A stretch of DNA of 64,000 bases, from the NCBI GenBank assembly GCA_009885955.1, contig VFJS01000041.1, forward strand, positions 1 through 64,000. The letters are read 5' to 3'. This DNA comes from Spirochaetia bacterium (lineage in GTDB: Bacteria > Spirochaetota > UBA4802 > UBA5550). Position numbers and translations under genes: made by a program. Shown here piece by piece: positions 3,779 through 9,540 of this stretch (position 1 is the first letter of the stretch; each line of letters starts with the position of its first letter). The notes beneath the pieces are model-generated. The model saw nothing but the letters and a program-made list of their open reading frames with translations, was not told the DNA's origin and made no database searches.

Positions 3779-5272
3779 ATGAGAATTTTCGTGCTCATGT
3801 ATATTATTGTATTGTTGTTTCCCTATACTGTCCGCTCAGAGGAAGGGGACCCAGGTGATTATTTCAGAAAAAACGTCGTCCACAAGAGGCTGGCAAACGG
3901 TATCAGCCTGATCATGCTGAACAGGGGGTTTTCCCCGACTCTCTCCTTTGAAATCGATTTCAAGGTAGGTTCAGTAGATGAGACTTACCGGACTGCTGGT
4001 TCTGCGCATCTCCTTGAGCATATGCTGTTCAAAGGCACAGACAGGGTCGGGACTACAAATTTTAAAGAGGAAAAAAAGATTCTTGATGAGATAGAGACCA
4101 TAGGCGAGACACTGGACAGGCTGAAGCTCATAAACCCCGGCAATTTGATGATCCCCGGGCTTGAGAAGAGGCTGAAGGAGCTTCAGAAGGAGCAGGGTAA
4201 ATATATTGTCAATGCTCCCTATGACACGCTCTATACCGCAAGGGGAGGTGTGGGGCTCAATGCCTCCACATCCAAGGATAAGACCGGGTATTATATTGAG
4301 CTGCCGTCAAAACAGCTGGAATTCTGGGCACAGCTGGAATCGGAACGGCTCAGGAATCCGGTGCTCCGGGAGTTTTACCTTGAAAGGAATAACGTCATTG
4401 AAGAGAGGCTCATGAGGTACGGGTCCAGCGGAGAGGGGAGCCTGTATGAGCTTTTCATCGGGAAGGCATTCAATGCCCATCCTTACAGGCATCCCATTAT
4501 CGGATGGGAATCCAATATTCCCAACCTATCTATAAAGGATGTGAGGGATTTTTACCGTACCTACTATATCCCGTCCAGGATGACTATCACCATTGTCGGA
4601 AAACAGGATGTAAACGAGACAGAGCGCATAATAAAAAAATATTTTGAAGGGATAGAGGGGAGGCCCGAACCCTCTGAGATCACGATAAAAGAGCCGGCCA
4701 TGAACGGGGAGACACGCTTCTCCTACTACTTTGAGTCAAATCCCTATATCATCATAGGGTGGCACAAGCCCACATTCCCGTCCAGGGACGACTACATTTT
4801 CGAGATGATTTCTGAAATTCTGGCAGGAGGCAAATCTTCCGTCCTCTACAAGTCCATGATTCTTGAAAAGAAGATGCTGTCATCAGTGAAGGTCTGGAAC
4901 GGGACGCCGGGCTCAAGGTATGATAATCTTCTCATTGTATTTGCTGCGCCCAGGGGGGCTGCAGGCATTGAGGAGGCCGAAAAAGAGATCTATGCCGGAA
5001 TTGATAAGATGGCAAGGGAGATCACATCGAATGACCTGAATAAAATTATAAATAAAATGGAATCGGAGATTGTCTTCGGCCTGGATACGAACAGGGGAAT
5101 AACAAGGCTCCTGAGCCATTACCAGACTCTCCACGGAAACTGGGAATACCTGGCTGATTATCTGAAGGTATTGAAAAGCATTACCGTTGAGGATATACAG
5201 GGCGCTGTCCGGAAATATATGATACATAAAAACAGGATCGTGGGAGTTTTACATGACAGCAGAAAAAAATAG
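3779..5272 (+). CDS. M16 zinc metallopeptidase, catalytic subunit, exported
   Basis: 497-aa insulinase/processing-peptidase-like protein. An N-terminal hydrophobic signal peptide (about 1-20, ending VRS-EEGD) sends it to the periplasm. The inverted zinc motif HxxEH is present (HLLEH, 77-81), and the distal glutamate lies in the ERNNVIEERL region (about 199-210). The C-terminal half is the second M16 lobe. A ggag ribosome site precedes the ATG. The last 20 nt overlap the next gene, which encodes an M16 protein without the zinc motif. Paired catalytic and non-catalytic M16 subunits are a known heterodimeric arrangement that degrades peptides in a closed chamber. Confidence 0.93.
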   Translation: MRIFVLMYIIVLLFPYTVRSEEGDPGDYFRKNVVHKRLANGISLIMLNRGFSPTLSFEIDFKVGSVDETYRTAGSAHLLEHMLFKGTDRVGTTNFKEEKKILDEIETIGETLDRLKLINPGNLMIPGLEKRLKELQKEQGKYIVNAPYDTLYTARGGVGLNASTSKDKTGYYIELPSKQLEFWAQLESERLRNPVLREFYLERNNVIEERLMRYGSSGEGSLYELFIGKAFNAHPYRHPIIGWESNIPNLSIKDVRDFYRTYYIPSRMTITIVGKQDVNETERIIKKYFEGIEGRPEPSEITIKEPAMNGETRFSYYFESNPYIIIGWHKPTFPSRDDYIFEMISEILAGGKSSVLYKSMILEKKMLSSVKVWNGTPGSRYDNLLIVFAAPRGAAGIEEAEKEIYAGIDKMAREITSNDLNKIINKMESEIVFGLDTNRGITRLLSHYQTLHGNWEYLADYLKVLKSITVEDIQGAVRKYMIHKNRIVGVLHDSRKK

Positions 5273-6686
5273 GGAAGGAATTCATGTATCGAAAAGCGTG
5301 AAGGCGGCTTTGTGTACATTTCTTGTTATACTGTTTTTTGTACATGAAGGCAAAACCCTGGCCTCAGGAGTGGATCTCATGGAAGGCCTTAACCTCCCGG
5401 AGGTGAAAAAAATCAGCCTTAAAAACGGGATCAAAATTTTTTATATCCATGATGAGCTCCCCAAGGTCAATATAATCGTGTCGCTGGGTTTCGGAAGGCT
5501 GTATGAGGACAGGAGCAATGCAGGTTTATCTGACCTCATTGTAAAGACATTATCCCTTTCAGGCTCTGCAAAATATCCGGGCAATACGCTGCATGAAGCC
5601 ATTGATTCCATAGGCGGCGAGTTTTCCATATCCACCTCGTGGGAGAATATCGGCATATCCATCAAGGTGCTCATGAAGCACAGTGACAGGGCCTTTGACA
5701 TCATATCCGATATCATGGCAAATCCCAATTTTGATGAAAAGCATATTGCCATGGCAAAATCTCTTCTGGCAGAAGAGCTGAAGAGAAAATGGGACAGCCC
5801 TGAAACAATTGCCTTTGAAAAATCCAGGGAGCTTATTTTCGACGGGAGCGGATACGGGGCAGTCCCCACAGCTGAAATTACGAATGCAATATCAAAAAAC
5901 ACCCTTGCAGAGACATGGAAGAGGTATGCCAATGGAGGGAACACGCTCATCGGTATTTCATCAGGTGATAATTTTGAAAAAATAAGCGAGTTAACTGAAA
6001 AGCATTTTTTGAAGATTAACCCTGGAGTACGGGAACATTATACCTCGGATTACGGGAAAATCCGTAGCAGCATCAATGAAAAAAAGGGGAAAATATTCTT
6101 TTATCCAAAAAATGTCCCCCAATCCACAGTGGTTGTAAGCACCTATGCCCCTGATATGAATTACGAAGGGAAATACGCGCTTACGGTGATGAACTTCATC
6201 CTGGGGCACAGTTCATTCAATTCCAGGCTCGGCAACGACATCCGGGTTAAACGCGGGCTTGCCTACGCGGTACAGTCTGTTGTGCGTCAGAAACATAAAA
6301 CCGGAGTATTCATAGGTTTTGCCCAGACAAAAACATCGTCCACTGATGAGGTCCTTGGCCTGCTTCTGAAGAATATCGACGATATTTCTAAAATCAAGGT
6401 CAGTGACGATGAACTCACCTGGTCAAAAAATTCTATTTATCATTCATTCATCTTCGCCTTTGATACCGTAACCAATCTTTTAAATAACTTCATGAACATC
6501 GATTTTTACGGCCTTCCTGATGACTATTACATGAATTATCCAAAGATGATCAACAGGGTCACTTCTGAAGATGTTCTCAGGGAGGGGGGGCTGATTTTCA
6601 GGGATGGGCTGATAAAGGTTGTAGTTGGAAGCCCGGAAGTCAGGGATAAGCTGGAAAAATTCGGCGAGGTGGTGATATTAAAATAG
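5253..6686 (+). CDS. M16 family protein, non-catalytic partner
   Basis: 477-aa M16-fold protein. The place where HxxEH should sit reads GLSDLIVKTLSLSG (about 89-102), so no zinc site can form. The fold is otherwise recognisable (NGIKIFYIHDELPKVNI; later RVKRGLAYAVQS, which corresponds to the substrate-binding R-x-GLAY block). A hydrophobic export segment lies at about 16-35 (VKAALCTFLVILFFV) after a charged leader. The ATG at 5253, with GGGAG seven bases upstream, overlaps the end of the catalytic partner. An internal GTG at 5298 would shorten the leader but has no good ribosome site. Role inferred: regulatory and substrate-binding half of the heterodimer. Confidence 0.9.
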   Translation: MTAEKNREGIHVSKSVKAALCTFLVILFFVHEGKTLASGVDLMEGLNLPEVKKISLKNGIKIFYIHDELPKVNIIVSLGFGRLYEDRSNAGLSDLIVKTLSLSGSAKYPGNTLHEAIDSIGGEFSISTSWENIGISIKVLMKHSDRAFDIISDIMANPNFDEKHIAMAKSLLAEELKRKWDSPETIAFEKSRELIFDGSGYGAVPTAEITNAISKNTLAETWKRYANGGNTLIGISSGDNFEKISELTEKHFLKINPGVREHYTSDYGKIRSSINEKKGKIFFYPKNVPQSTVVVSTYAPDMNYEGKYALTVMNFILGHSSFNSRLGNDIRVKRGLAYAVQSVVRQKHKTGVFIGFAQTKTSSTDEVLGLLLKNIDDISKIKVSDDELTWSKNSIYHSFIFAFDTVTNLLNNFMNIDFYGLPDDYYMNYPKMINRVTSEDVLREGGLIFRDGLIKVVVGSPEVRDKLEKFGEVVILK

Positions 6687-6755
6687 ACTGTCTCAGCCGT
6701 TAATGAAACCGGTAATAATTTTTTTATGATGAAATTTATACGACTAATGATTTAA

Positions 6756-6784
6756 TTTATACCCTTTATATACCGAGATATAAT
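6756..6784 (+). promoter_or_regulatory. Candidate sigma-70 promoter upstream of structured RNA and greA
   Basis: TTTATA (6756-6761), a 17-bp spacer and a perfect TATAAT (6779-6784). Transcription would start near 6791, just ahead of the multi-helix segment and about 300 nt ahead of the 42-codon ORF and greA. Confidence 0.45.
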
Positions 6785-6790
6785 TAATCA

Positions 6791-7050
6791 GTAACATTGC
6801 GCTAACCTTTGGCGTGGTTTGCTGATAGAATCTTTCCATGGAGCTTCCATGGCAGGATTTGAAGTATGAATATCAAGTACATGGAAGTACTGATGTCGAT
6901 GAAGCCATGGATGGTGACAGACGGCCGCAAACCATGCGTTTTCCCCAGGTCTAAGCCCGGAAAACGGTGGAACTTCCCTGTAACAAATCAGCCCCGATTA
7001 GAAATGGAATATTAAAACACCTGCTGTCACAATGGCAGGGTGTGCTTATT
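6791..7050 (+). ncRNA. Candidate structured non-coding RNA or long leader, class unknown
   Basis: A roughly 260-nt intergenic stretch with nested complementary segments. A long-range helix joins 6812-6822 and 6927-6937 (11 bp, one G-U). Inside it are a hairpin with 6836-6841 pairing 6847-6852 (flanked by 6829-6832 with 6856-6859) and a hairpin 6876-6880 with 6887-6891. Directly downstream is a perfect 8-bp helix, 6937-6944 with 6959-6966. A final hairpin, 7017-7024 with 7035-7043, precedes a T-rich run. The segment has no long ORF and a good promoter precedes it. I do not see the signatures of RNase P, tmRNA, 6S, SRP RNA or a cobalamin riboswitch. It could be a stand-alone small RNA or a leader regulating greA. 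Confidence 0.45.
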
Positions 7051-7092
7051 ATTTCCGGGCTGAAAAAAAATAATCTATTTTAAGGAAATAAA

Positions 7093-7221
7093 ATGATTGA
7101 AAAAGTTGTTGATTTAAATTCTTATAAGATTGAGAAATCACTCAGGGAAAACGGTTTTATTGTTAAAAAAGATAAGGGAAAGAGGATAAAACTCCTTATA
7201 AAACTGAAAAAAGATGATTAG
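7093..7221 (+). CDS. Small basic ORF upstream of greA (42 aa)
   Basis: ATG preceded by taaggaaata, a good ribosome site. It encodes 42 residues beginning MIEKVVDLNSYKIEK and ending LLIKLKKDD, rich in Lys and very basic. Its stop lies 26 bp before greA, so the two are probably co-transcribed. I do not recognise the product. The ribosome site, codon use like its neighbours and tight spacing argue for a real small gene. It is short enough that chance cannot be ruled out. Confidence 0.5.
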   Translation: MIEKVVDLNSYKIEKSLRENGFIVKKDKGKRIKLLIKLKKDD

Positions 7222-7247
7222 ATCCCTTTTGATAACAGGAGATTATA

Positions 7248-7739
7248 ATGGGCAGCGATATTGACGCAAAAAAAGCTTCCATTAAGGAAGAACTGGCAAA
7301 GCTGAAACATGAATTCAAGGTGGAATTGCCTAAAGTTATTGCCAAGGCAAGGGCCTTTGGTGATTTGAAAGAGAATGCCGAATACCATGCAGCCAGGGAG
7401 AGGCAATCCTTTGTAAAAGCGAGAATTGGCCAGTACTCTGAGCAGTTGAGTAAATTGAATAACTTTAATTATTCCGATATCCCGGCAGATAAAGTCGGTT
7501 TCGGCTCTGAATTAACGGTTATCGATATGGATACCGATGACCGGATAAATTTCATCATTGTTTCATCGGATGAGGTTAATCCATCGGAAGGTAAAATATC
7601 GCTCACATCGCCGATAGGCGTTGCTCTGAGCAACAGGACAGCAGGGGAAGAAGTGGAGATAAAAATTCCTTCAGGGAAAAAGAGATACTTCATTGAAAAA
7701 CTTGTTACCATACATGGGGAAGAATATATAAAGACATAA
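7248..7739 (+). CDS. greA: Transcription elongation factor GreA
   Basis: 163 aa, the usual GreA length. The N-terminal coiled coil (about 7-75) carries the Gre signature GDLKENAEYHAARERQ. Its tip acidic residues D39 and E42 are the ones that enter the RNA polymerase secondary channel and activate cleavage of backtracked RNA. The C-terminal FKBP-like domain has the expected SPIGVALSNRTAGEEVEIKIPSG block (about 120-142). An aggagattata ribosome site precedes the ATG. It follows the structured segment and the 42-codon ORF, and is convergent with the histidine kinase. Confidence 0.96.
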   Translation: MGSDIDAKKASIKEELAKLKHEFKVELPKVIAKARAFGDLKENAEYHAARERQSFVKARIGQYSEQLSKLNNFNYSDIPADKVGFGSELTVIDMDTDDRINFIIVSSDEVNPSEGKISLTSPIGVALSNRTAGEEVEIKIPSGKKRYFIEKLVTIHGEEYIKT

Positions 7740-7785
7740 TCGAATATCCCGAATATTTTTCCATTTTTTAATTATTCGAGGTCCC

Positions 7786-9540
7786 TTATTCCTGAAAAGT
7801 CACAGTTATGGTTGTGCCGCTGTCCCCGGAGATTGTGATAGTTCCCCTGATCTGTTTCACAAGGGCATCTACGAGATGCAGGCCCAGCGAACTGGAGTCA
7901 GCCTTGTCTCTCCCGGATTCCATGCCTATGCCATTGTCCATGACGGAAAGTGTATAGGTACCCCTGTTCTTTTTCATATCAATAATTATCTCACCTCCTG
8001 AAACATTATGGAACGCGTGTTTGTATGAATTCGATATAAGCTCAGTGACGATGAGGCCGCAGGGTATGGCCCTGTCCAGGCCGAGGCATATATTGCCGGG
8101 ATTAATTGAATACGTTACATTGTTTTCTGATGATGAACGGGACTCGAAGAAGTTGCTCAGCAGCGTATTAAAGTATTCGGCAATATTGATGGCTGCCATG
8201 TTGTCCGACTGGTACAGCTGTTCATGGACAAGGGCCATGGAACGGATCCTGCTTTCGGCCATCATGAAATGCTCCCTTGCCTTTTCATCCTTTATGTTGC
8301 CGAGCTGCAGGTTGAGAAGGCTTATGATCACCTGCATATTGTTTTTTACGCGGTGGTGGATTTCAGTCAGGAGTATCTCCTTCTCCATCAGCGATGCCCT
8401 GATCTGTTCCTCTGATTTTTTCTGATCGGTTACATCCAGGGCCAGAACCAGCATGGCAGGCCTCCCGTCAAAATCTATTTTATGGCCCTTGATGTCCACG
8501 GTAATGATCGAGTCGTCCTTTTTCCGGTGCCTTGCAATTCCAACTTTTCTTATGTTTCCCATGTCACTGCTCAATACATCCATGAGGCGGGGGATGTCTT
8601 CGGCCGGCCGTATCTCCTTGATGGTCATTTTCAGAAATTCATCTGCTGAATATCCGTAATGGTCCACGGCAAAATCGTTTACTGCAAGAAAAGCGAGACT
8701 TTCAGTATCATAAACCCACATCGGCACGGGATTATTCTGAAACAGGATCCTGTACTTCTCTTCGGATAGGCGCAGCGCATCCTCAGCGGATTTCTGAATG
8801 GTAATATCCCGTTCAACACTTATGAAAAATTGTTTTCCGTCAATCATAATGGGCCTGGCGTTGACTTCAAGGTGAAAGAATGAACCGTCCTTTCTCCTGT
8901 GACTCGTCTTGAAGATCAGAGGTTTGCCCATACCGGCACTTGCCATCTTTTTCATGACTTCTTCCGGTGAAATGTCAGGGCTGATGAATGTTATCGGCTG
9001 GCCCAGGATCTCCTCCCGTGTATAGCCATGGGCCATAAGGCCCGATTCATTTATATCTGCTATAAAGGGGATCCCTTCTTTGCCCATTTCAAGAATTACA
9101 ACATTTTCACCGGCCTGCTCAAAAAGTGTGCGGTAGCGCTCCTCGCTGTTTTTGAGTTTCATCTCCATCTCATGCTTATACAGGGCGAGCTCTACGGTTA
9201 AATGAAGCTCGCTGCGGCTTAACGGTTTAAGTATGTATCCCTGCGGAGCAGTTTCCTTGGCCTTTTGAAGGGTTACTGTGTCGGAATGGGCGGTAAGATA
9301 TATGACCGGCGCGCTGTGAATTTTTTTAATCTCGCCGGCGGCAGCTATCCCGTCTTTATCTCCTTTGAGAATAATATCCATGATGATGAGGTCAGGTTTT
9401 TCCGTTGAGGCTATGCGCACGGCATCTTCAGCTGAATTCCCTATCGTGCAGATTTCATAGCCTTTTGCCATGAGGGAATTCCTTATGTCCATGGCAATTA
9501 TGGATTCGTCTTCAATTATGAGAATTTTTGCTTTCTTCAT
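7786..9540 (-). CDS. REC-PAS-PAS-HisKA_2 hybrid histidine kinase
   Basis: 584-aa soluble kinase. The N-terminal receiver domain (1-120) has phospho-acceptor D55 (LIIMD) and the K-P pair in YILKPLSR. Two PAS domains follow (about 132-255 and 262-382). Next comes a HisKA_2 dimerisation block with the phospho-histidine in EIHHRVKNN (H395). The HATPase domain ends the protein (N-box in ELISNSYKHAF, G-boxes NGIGM and SLGLHLVD). Receiver-first kinases of this class usually relay a signal from another kinase to a downstream regulator. No partner regulator is adjacent. No transmembrane segment, so it senses cytoplasmic cues or redox through PAS. The start ATG begins the receiver domain exactly. Confidence 0.94.
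   Translation of the reverse strand: MKKAKILIIEDESIIAMDIRNSLMAKGYEICTIGNSAEDAVRIASTEKPDLIIMDIILKGDKDGIAAAGEIKKIHSAPVIYLTAHSDTVTLQKAKETAPQGYILKPLSRSELHLTVELALYKHEMEMKLKNSEERYRTLFEQAGENVVILEMGKEGIPFIADINESGLMAHGYTREEILGQPITFISPDISPEEVMKKMASAGMGKPLIFKTSHRRKDGSFFHLEVNARPIMIDGKQFFISVERDITIQKSAEDALRLSEEKYRILFQNNPVPMWVYDTESLAFLAVNDFAVDHYGYSADEFLKMTIKEIRPAEDIPRLMDVLSSDMGNIRKVGIARHRKKDDSIITVDIKGHKIDFDGRPAMLVLALDVTDQKKSEEQIRASLMEKEILLTEIHHRVKNNMQVIISLLNLQLGNIKDEKAREHFMMAESRIRSMALVHEQLYQSDNMAAINIAEYFNTLLSNFFESRSSSENNVTYSINPGNICLGLDRAIPCGLIVTELISNSYKHAFHNVSGGEIIIDMKKNRGTYTLSVMDNGIGMESGRDKADSSSLGLHLVDALVKQIRGTITISGDSGTTITVTFQE

Follow-up and report, generated by a model that had tools for sequence, protein, structure and literature searches.

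What is the structured segment upstream of greA in this spirochaete: a new kind of small RNA, or the leader of the genes that follow it? The window, which is the whole 64,000-nucleotide stretch analysed here, belongs to contig C55 of a draft genome of 4.77 Mb (G000), and the relatives of its greA, including that of Spirochaetae bacterium HGW-Spirochaetae-5, point to an order of mostly uncultured spirochaetes. On the + strand, an M16 protease gene (5253-6686) is followed after a gap of 406 nt by a 42-codon ORF, here termed orf42 (7093-7221), and then, 26 nt further on and without overlap, by greA (7248-7739), which encodes the GreA/GreB N- and C-terminal domains. Beyond greA, a histidine kinase gene runs from 7786 on the opposite strand.

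A structured RNA upstream of greA is real. On the + strand, the fold of 6791-7060 reaches a z-score of -2.9 against dinucleotide shuffles, with one of 200 shuffles equally stable; the opposite-strand fold of the same region is not unusual (z -0.8). Sequence and fold agree on an outer helix, P1 (6812-6937), in which 6812-6822 (GCGUGGUUUGC) pairs with 6927-6937 (GCAAACCAUGC) around three hairpins. The 11 bp of this helix, proposed in a preliminary description of the locus, are exact and include one G-U pair; a helix of 11 bp arises in 5 of 300 dinucleotide shuffles, and the ensemble probability of the P1 base pairs is 0.33-0.55. The fold also contains the internal hairpin that had been claimed, hpA (6828-6860, GAAUCUU.CCAUGGA GCU UCCAUGG.AGGAUUU), the GGA of which is paired, and the perfect 8-bp hairpin, hpB (6937-6966, formed by 6937-6944 and 6959-6966), while the list of ORFs upholds the absence of a long ORF in 6791-7050. 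That description had overlooked the two hairpins that form the core of the element, as well as the hairpin on the orf42 Shine-Dalgarno sequence (7076-7095). The core hairpins, supported by both the fold and a covariance model, are hp1 (6872-6894, AUCA(a)GUAC-AUGGAA-GUACUGAU) and hp2 (6895-6925, GUCG-AUGAA-GCC-AUGGAU-GGU-GACAGA-CGGC); their CsrA-type loops, AUGGAA at 6881-6886 and AUGGAU at 6907-6912, both lie inside P1 and 3' of hpA.

The region had been said to match no known RNA class. This is true of the Rfam models, among which the scan that had been called for found no matching family: nothing credible appeared at the gathering threshold or at E<=10, RF01731 has no match here, and no riboswitch or leader family fits the region, but the core resembles TwoAYGGAY/CsrA-hairpin elements. 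Three genomes of this order do contain matches to RF01731 above its threshold, and a search for tRNA and tmRNA returned none. A DNA search of relatives gave short matches only and recovered the whole 250-nt element in no other genome searched; since the element is found in this genome only, P1 and the placement of the element are unconserved. The same search drew out one piece of G012 and repeated pieces of G018, which are ANGGA-type hairpin pairs. A 32-nt match to a transposase-like gene (L012) was judged to be due to chance.

The resemblance was assessed with a covariance model trained on nine TwoAYGGAY-type two-hairpin elements from relatives, from which this genome, G012 and G018 were left out, and run over the 64-kb window with all filters off. 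The hp1+hp2 core (6872-6928, + strand) ranks first in the window with 21.5 bits (E 0.0035), the runner-up scoring 12.4 bits. Scaled to the whole genome, E is only about 0.25, and the same model gives other sites there 22, 21 and 20 bits, so that the match is convincing for a place chosen beforehand, not genome-wide; a fast genome search with the model, which scored 150 of 694 candidates, did not list the locus. In the relatives' element family, two-sided changes occur in 11 of 13 pairs and covariation is strong (score 0.341 vs 0.094 in shuffles), both as read from an alignment fitted to the model.

Most of what is known of regulation by CsrA comes from Gammaproteobacteria, and to our knowledge few CsrA targets are known in spirochaetes. 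This genome carries csrA (C70:401076-401231) adjoining fliW, which encodes a CsrA antagonist. The CsrA protein starts with MLVLARR and holds HRKEIY, motifs that include the leucine and the arginine important to RNA binding by CsrA proteins elsewhere. The neighbours of csrA, which we take to be flgK, flgL and fliW, stand in the order flgK-flgL-fliW-csrA (L264, G000:C70:396500-404500), as in other spirochaetes. CsrA recognises ANGGA in a hairpin loop, with the consensus RUACARGGAUGU cited in PMC8668096, and the Leptospira protein binds in vitro to hexaloops with GGA upstream of flaB (PMC8668096). Binding of CsrA has been predicted for TwoAYGGAY RNA (PMC4333381), and CsrA-binding RNA in spirochaetes is not a new idea, since a CsrA-related ncRNA has been predicted in Leptospira biflexa (PMC4863578). 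The accessible parts of the listed open-licence papers that name both CsrA and greA do not describe greA as controlled by CsrA.

Downstream of the element, homologue comparison identifies the 42-codon ORF as a genuine conserved, if unnamed, small-protein gene. Each of the 19 other family genomes has an orf42 homologue, and among spirochaetes as a whole 51 of 247 genomes do, some of these homologues lying away from greA; they share the pattern M-KKVVDL--YKIEK-L-ENGF--KKD---IKLLIKL, with invariant residues, and belong to no Pfam or NCBIfam family. In most genomes of the family orf42 lies between the same M16 protease gene and greA, and its Shine-Dalgarno sequence is covered by an ANGGA hairpin, at most about 25 nt from the orf42 start, in 15 of the 19 others. 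The usual form of this start hairpin is GUUC-ARGGAW-GAAC, followed by two or three bases and the start codon. The 14-mer GTTCARGGAWGAAC is present at the orf42 start in 14 of these genomes and has about one occurrence per genome, the reversed control pattern being rare; as a background, an ANGGA hairpin is found at 8 of 254 other Shine-Dalgarno-bearing starts (3%). In the window, the corresponding hairpin (7076-7095, + strand, UAUUUUA-AGGAAA-UAAAAUG) has its GGA, at 7084-7086, in the loop and the orf42 start codon at its base, on a weak stem rich in A-U pairs (simple stem, -0.5 kcal/mol). The start hairpin is absent at orf42 in the closest relative, G006, and in G002, G010 and G012. It is also absent from nearly all negative-control homologues, that is, those of more distant spirochaete families or those not adjoining greA, so that orf42 does not carry it in general. 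In one genome of a distant family (G112; L305, G112:C34), an independent-looking start hairpin, GUUC-AUGGAG-GAAC, precedes the orf42 homologue.

The enrichment is not confined to the start hairpin. Across 25 orf42 leaders, 30 ANGGA hairpins are found vs 3.0 expected, with no more than 8 in any of 300 shuffles, and when the start-proximal hairpins are set aside the distal ones alone number 13 vs 2.6 expected. The leader in this genome contains three vs 0.16 expected (1 of 2000 shuffles), a count for a motif chosen post hoc, as the restriction to ANGGA was picked after the sequence had been seen. When any GGA hairpin is counted, the 270-nt region alone is unremarkable (118 of 1000 shuffles).

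These observations suggest that the region is probably the 5' leader of an orf42-greA operon, built for CsrA binding. Between the two possibilities originally raised, a new small RNA or a leader of the 42-codon ORF and greA, the leader is the better supported, because orf42 is a conserved gene and because the family keeps CsrA-type hairpins in the orf42 leader; a regulatory leader for orf42 and greA is thus judged most likely, ahead of a new free-standing RNA class. Transcription would start near 6791, and the nascent RNA would close P1 around its three hairpins, with hp1 and hp2 presenting ANGGA loops in the computed fold. The third ANGGA hairpin, as the sequence shows, has the orf42 Shine-Dalgarno sequence in its loop. 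By analogy with known CsrA targets, a CsrA dimer docked on hp1/hp2 could reach across, or be passed on, to the Shine-Dalgarno hairpin, by which ribosomes would be kept off orf42 and greA lowered through coupling or polarity. FliW, or an excess of competing sites, might then draw CsrA off the leader and release the block.

The fold itself leaves room for another type of control. With hp1 and hp2 formed inside P1, the fold reaches -92.7 kcal/mol, close to the -94.8 kcal/mol of the most stable one, P1 competes with an alternative 5' hairpin at almost equal energy, and hp1 is rivalled by an alternative pairing to 6974-6979, again at almost equal energy. Such competition, together with the presence of a terminal hairpin, would suit a different sort of structured leader, such as an attenuator that works through the terminal hairpin, in which the ANGGA loops are coincidental. 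We consider this the least probable of the readings, given the enrichment of ANGGA hairpins, the match to a model built blind to this genome, and the lack of any Rfam riboswitch or leader family here. For the CsrA-controlled leader, it is the arrangement with hp1 and hp2 inside P1 that would be expected to form first during transcription.

The boundaries of the element bear on whether it is a transcript of its own. The promoter-like site TTTATA - 17 nt - TATAAT (6756-6784, + strand) is assigned by consensus match only: the TATAAT at 6779-6784 is perfect, as had been noted, but the -35 element, TTTATA at 6756-6761 with a spacer of 17, is weak. Together the two boxes score 10/12, the best promoter-like match within 5500-9500, where such matches occur at chance density (10 found vs 9.3 expected). 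At the other end, the terminal hairpin (7017-7043, + strand, about -12 kcal/mol) is present, but its supposedly T-rich tail, GCTTATTATTT, is interrupted and a terminator scan did not call it, which leaves its role as a terminator doubtful. With this separate promoter-like site and terminal hairpin, it is possible that the region is a free small RNA, about 250 nt long and bounded by a promoter and a terminator of its own, which sequesters CsrA in trans like CsrB or RsmZ and whose position upstream of orf42 is incidental. The TwoAYGGAY-type core within an outer helix would fit such an RNA, and so would the many two-hairpin elements that relatives hold as separate intergenic units. However, only two ANGGA loops are clearly exposed within 6791-7050, the terminator is uncalled, and the signal seen across the family belongs to the downstream gene's leader, Shine-Dalgarno sequence included; a free RNA of this kind is accordingly rated unlikely.

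Elements of the TwoAYGGAY type are present in many copies in this order. G003, G015 and G017 have 65, 46 and 32 matches (E<=1), and further copies occur in G018, G033, G005 and other genomes (L224-L257), mostly intergenic and with an outer stem. Among the 40 elements L224-L263, 18 lie on the strand opposite both neighbouring genes and 7 share the strand of both, an odd distribution for sites acting in cis. This genome has two further two-hairpin elements (L215, G000:C35:3816-3872; L223, G000:C80:5269-5324), each with an AAGC-loop-GCUU hairpin and, after it, GACAUGGAUGUC carried by a long stem, and set near CCCCTCTCC / GGGGGTGAGG repeats.

This dispersal raises the possibility that the segment upstream of orf42 is a decayed or inserted copy of the order's two-hairpin repeat, now functionless here, since the leader of the closest relative (G006) is short and without the element and the repeat is scattered through the order, with tens of copies in some genomes and two more in repeat contexts in this one. 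However, it departs from those repeats in outer stem and length, has kept its two ANGGA hairpins intact, and lies in a leader where CsrA-type hairpins recur across the family, so that the reading is very doubtful. A combined role is conceivable and quite unlikely: the element could be both a CsrA-responsive leader of orf42 and of the gene for the elongation factor GreA and, when transcription stops near 7050, a CsrA-titrating RNA, one of many dispersed spirochaete two-hairpin CsrA sites that jointly buffer CsrA. If true, the sponge would consist of repeats at many places rather than a single small RNA.

For the favoured CsrA-controlled leader, a family-wide and nearly unique CsrA-type hairpin before orf42-greA would tie CsrA to transcription elongation, and the orf42 family would become a new small-protein target of CsrA. 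TwoAYGGAY-type elements, abundant in the same genomes, also offer a testable case for CsrA-titrating RNA outside Gammaproteobacteria, in which the sponge RNAs CsrB/CsrC/RsmX/Y/Z have so far been established (PMC4333381).

Compared with those sponge RNAs, the element likewise exposes GGA hairpins in a stable RNA, but it has far fewer sites than their many GGA hairpins. Its terminal hairpin, with an interrupted U-tract and uncalled by the scan, is a doubtful terminator for an independent transcript of the kind that CsrB and RsmZ form. With TwoAYGGAY (RF01731, clan CL00106) the element shares its layout: adjacent hairpins with ANGGAN loops in the same order and spacing, an outer helix, and a core that is found by the local model from spirochaete copies. 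The loops are of the AYGGAY type (AUGGAA and AUGGAU), the first ending in A and not Y, and the outer closing helix is represented by the 11-bp P1 with an extra hairpin inside, in an element known from one genome. Unlike TwoAYGGAY, this locus has that extra hairpin between P1 and hp1 and a single-copy leader position, and the RF01731 model itself does not match it, either at the gathering threshold or at E 10. CsrA-repressed leaders, such as those of iraD (PMC5574718) and flaB (PMC8668096), share with this region a GGA hairpin on the Shine-Dalgarno sequence and sites further upstream. In iraD, CsrA control is exerted via a short upstream ORF (PMC5574718), and here too a short ORF precedes the gene that would be regulated; in contrast to that system, orf42 is a conserved gene lying clear of greA, and the putative target here is orf42-greA. 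What this locus has in common with such leaders is an ANGGA hairpin on the Shine-Dalgarno sequence, albeit on a weak stem, sites upstream in hp1 and hp2, and csrA in the same genome.
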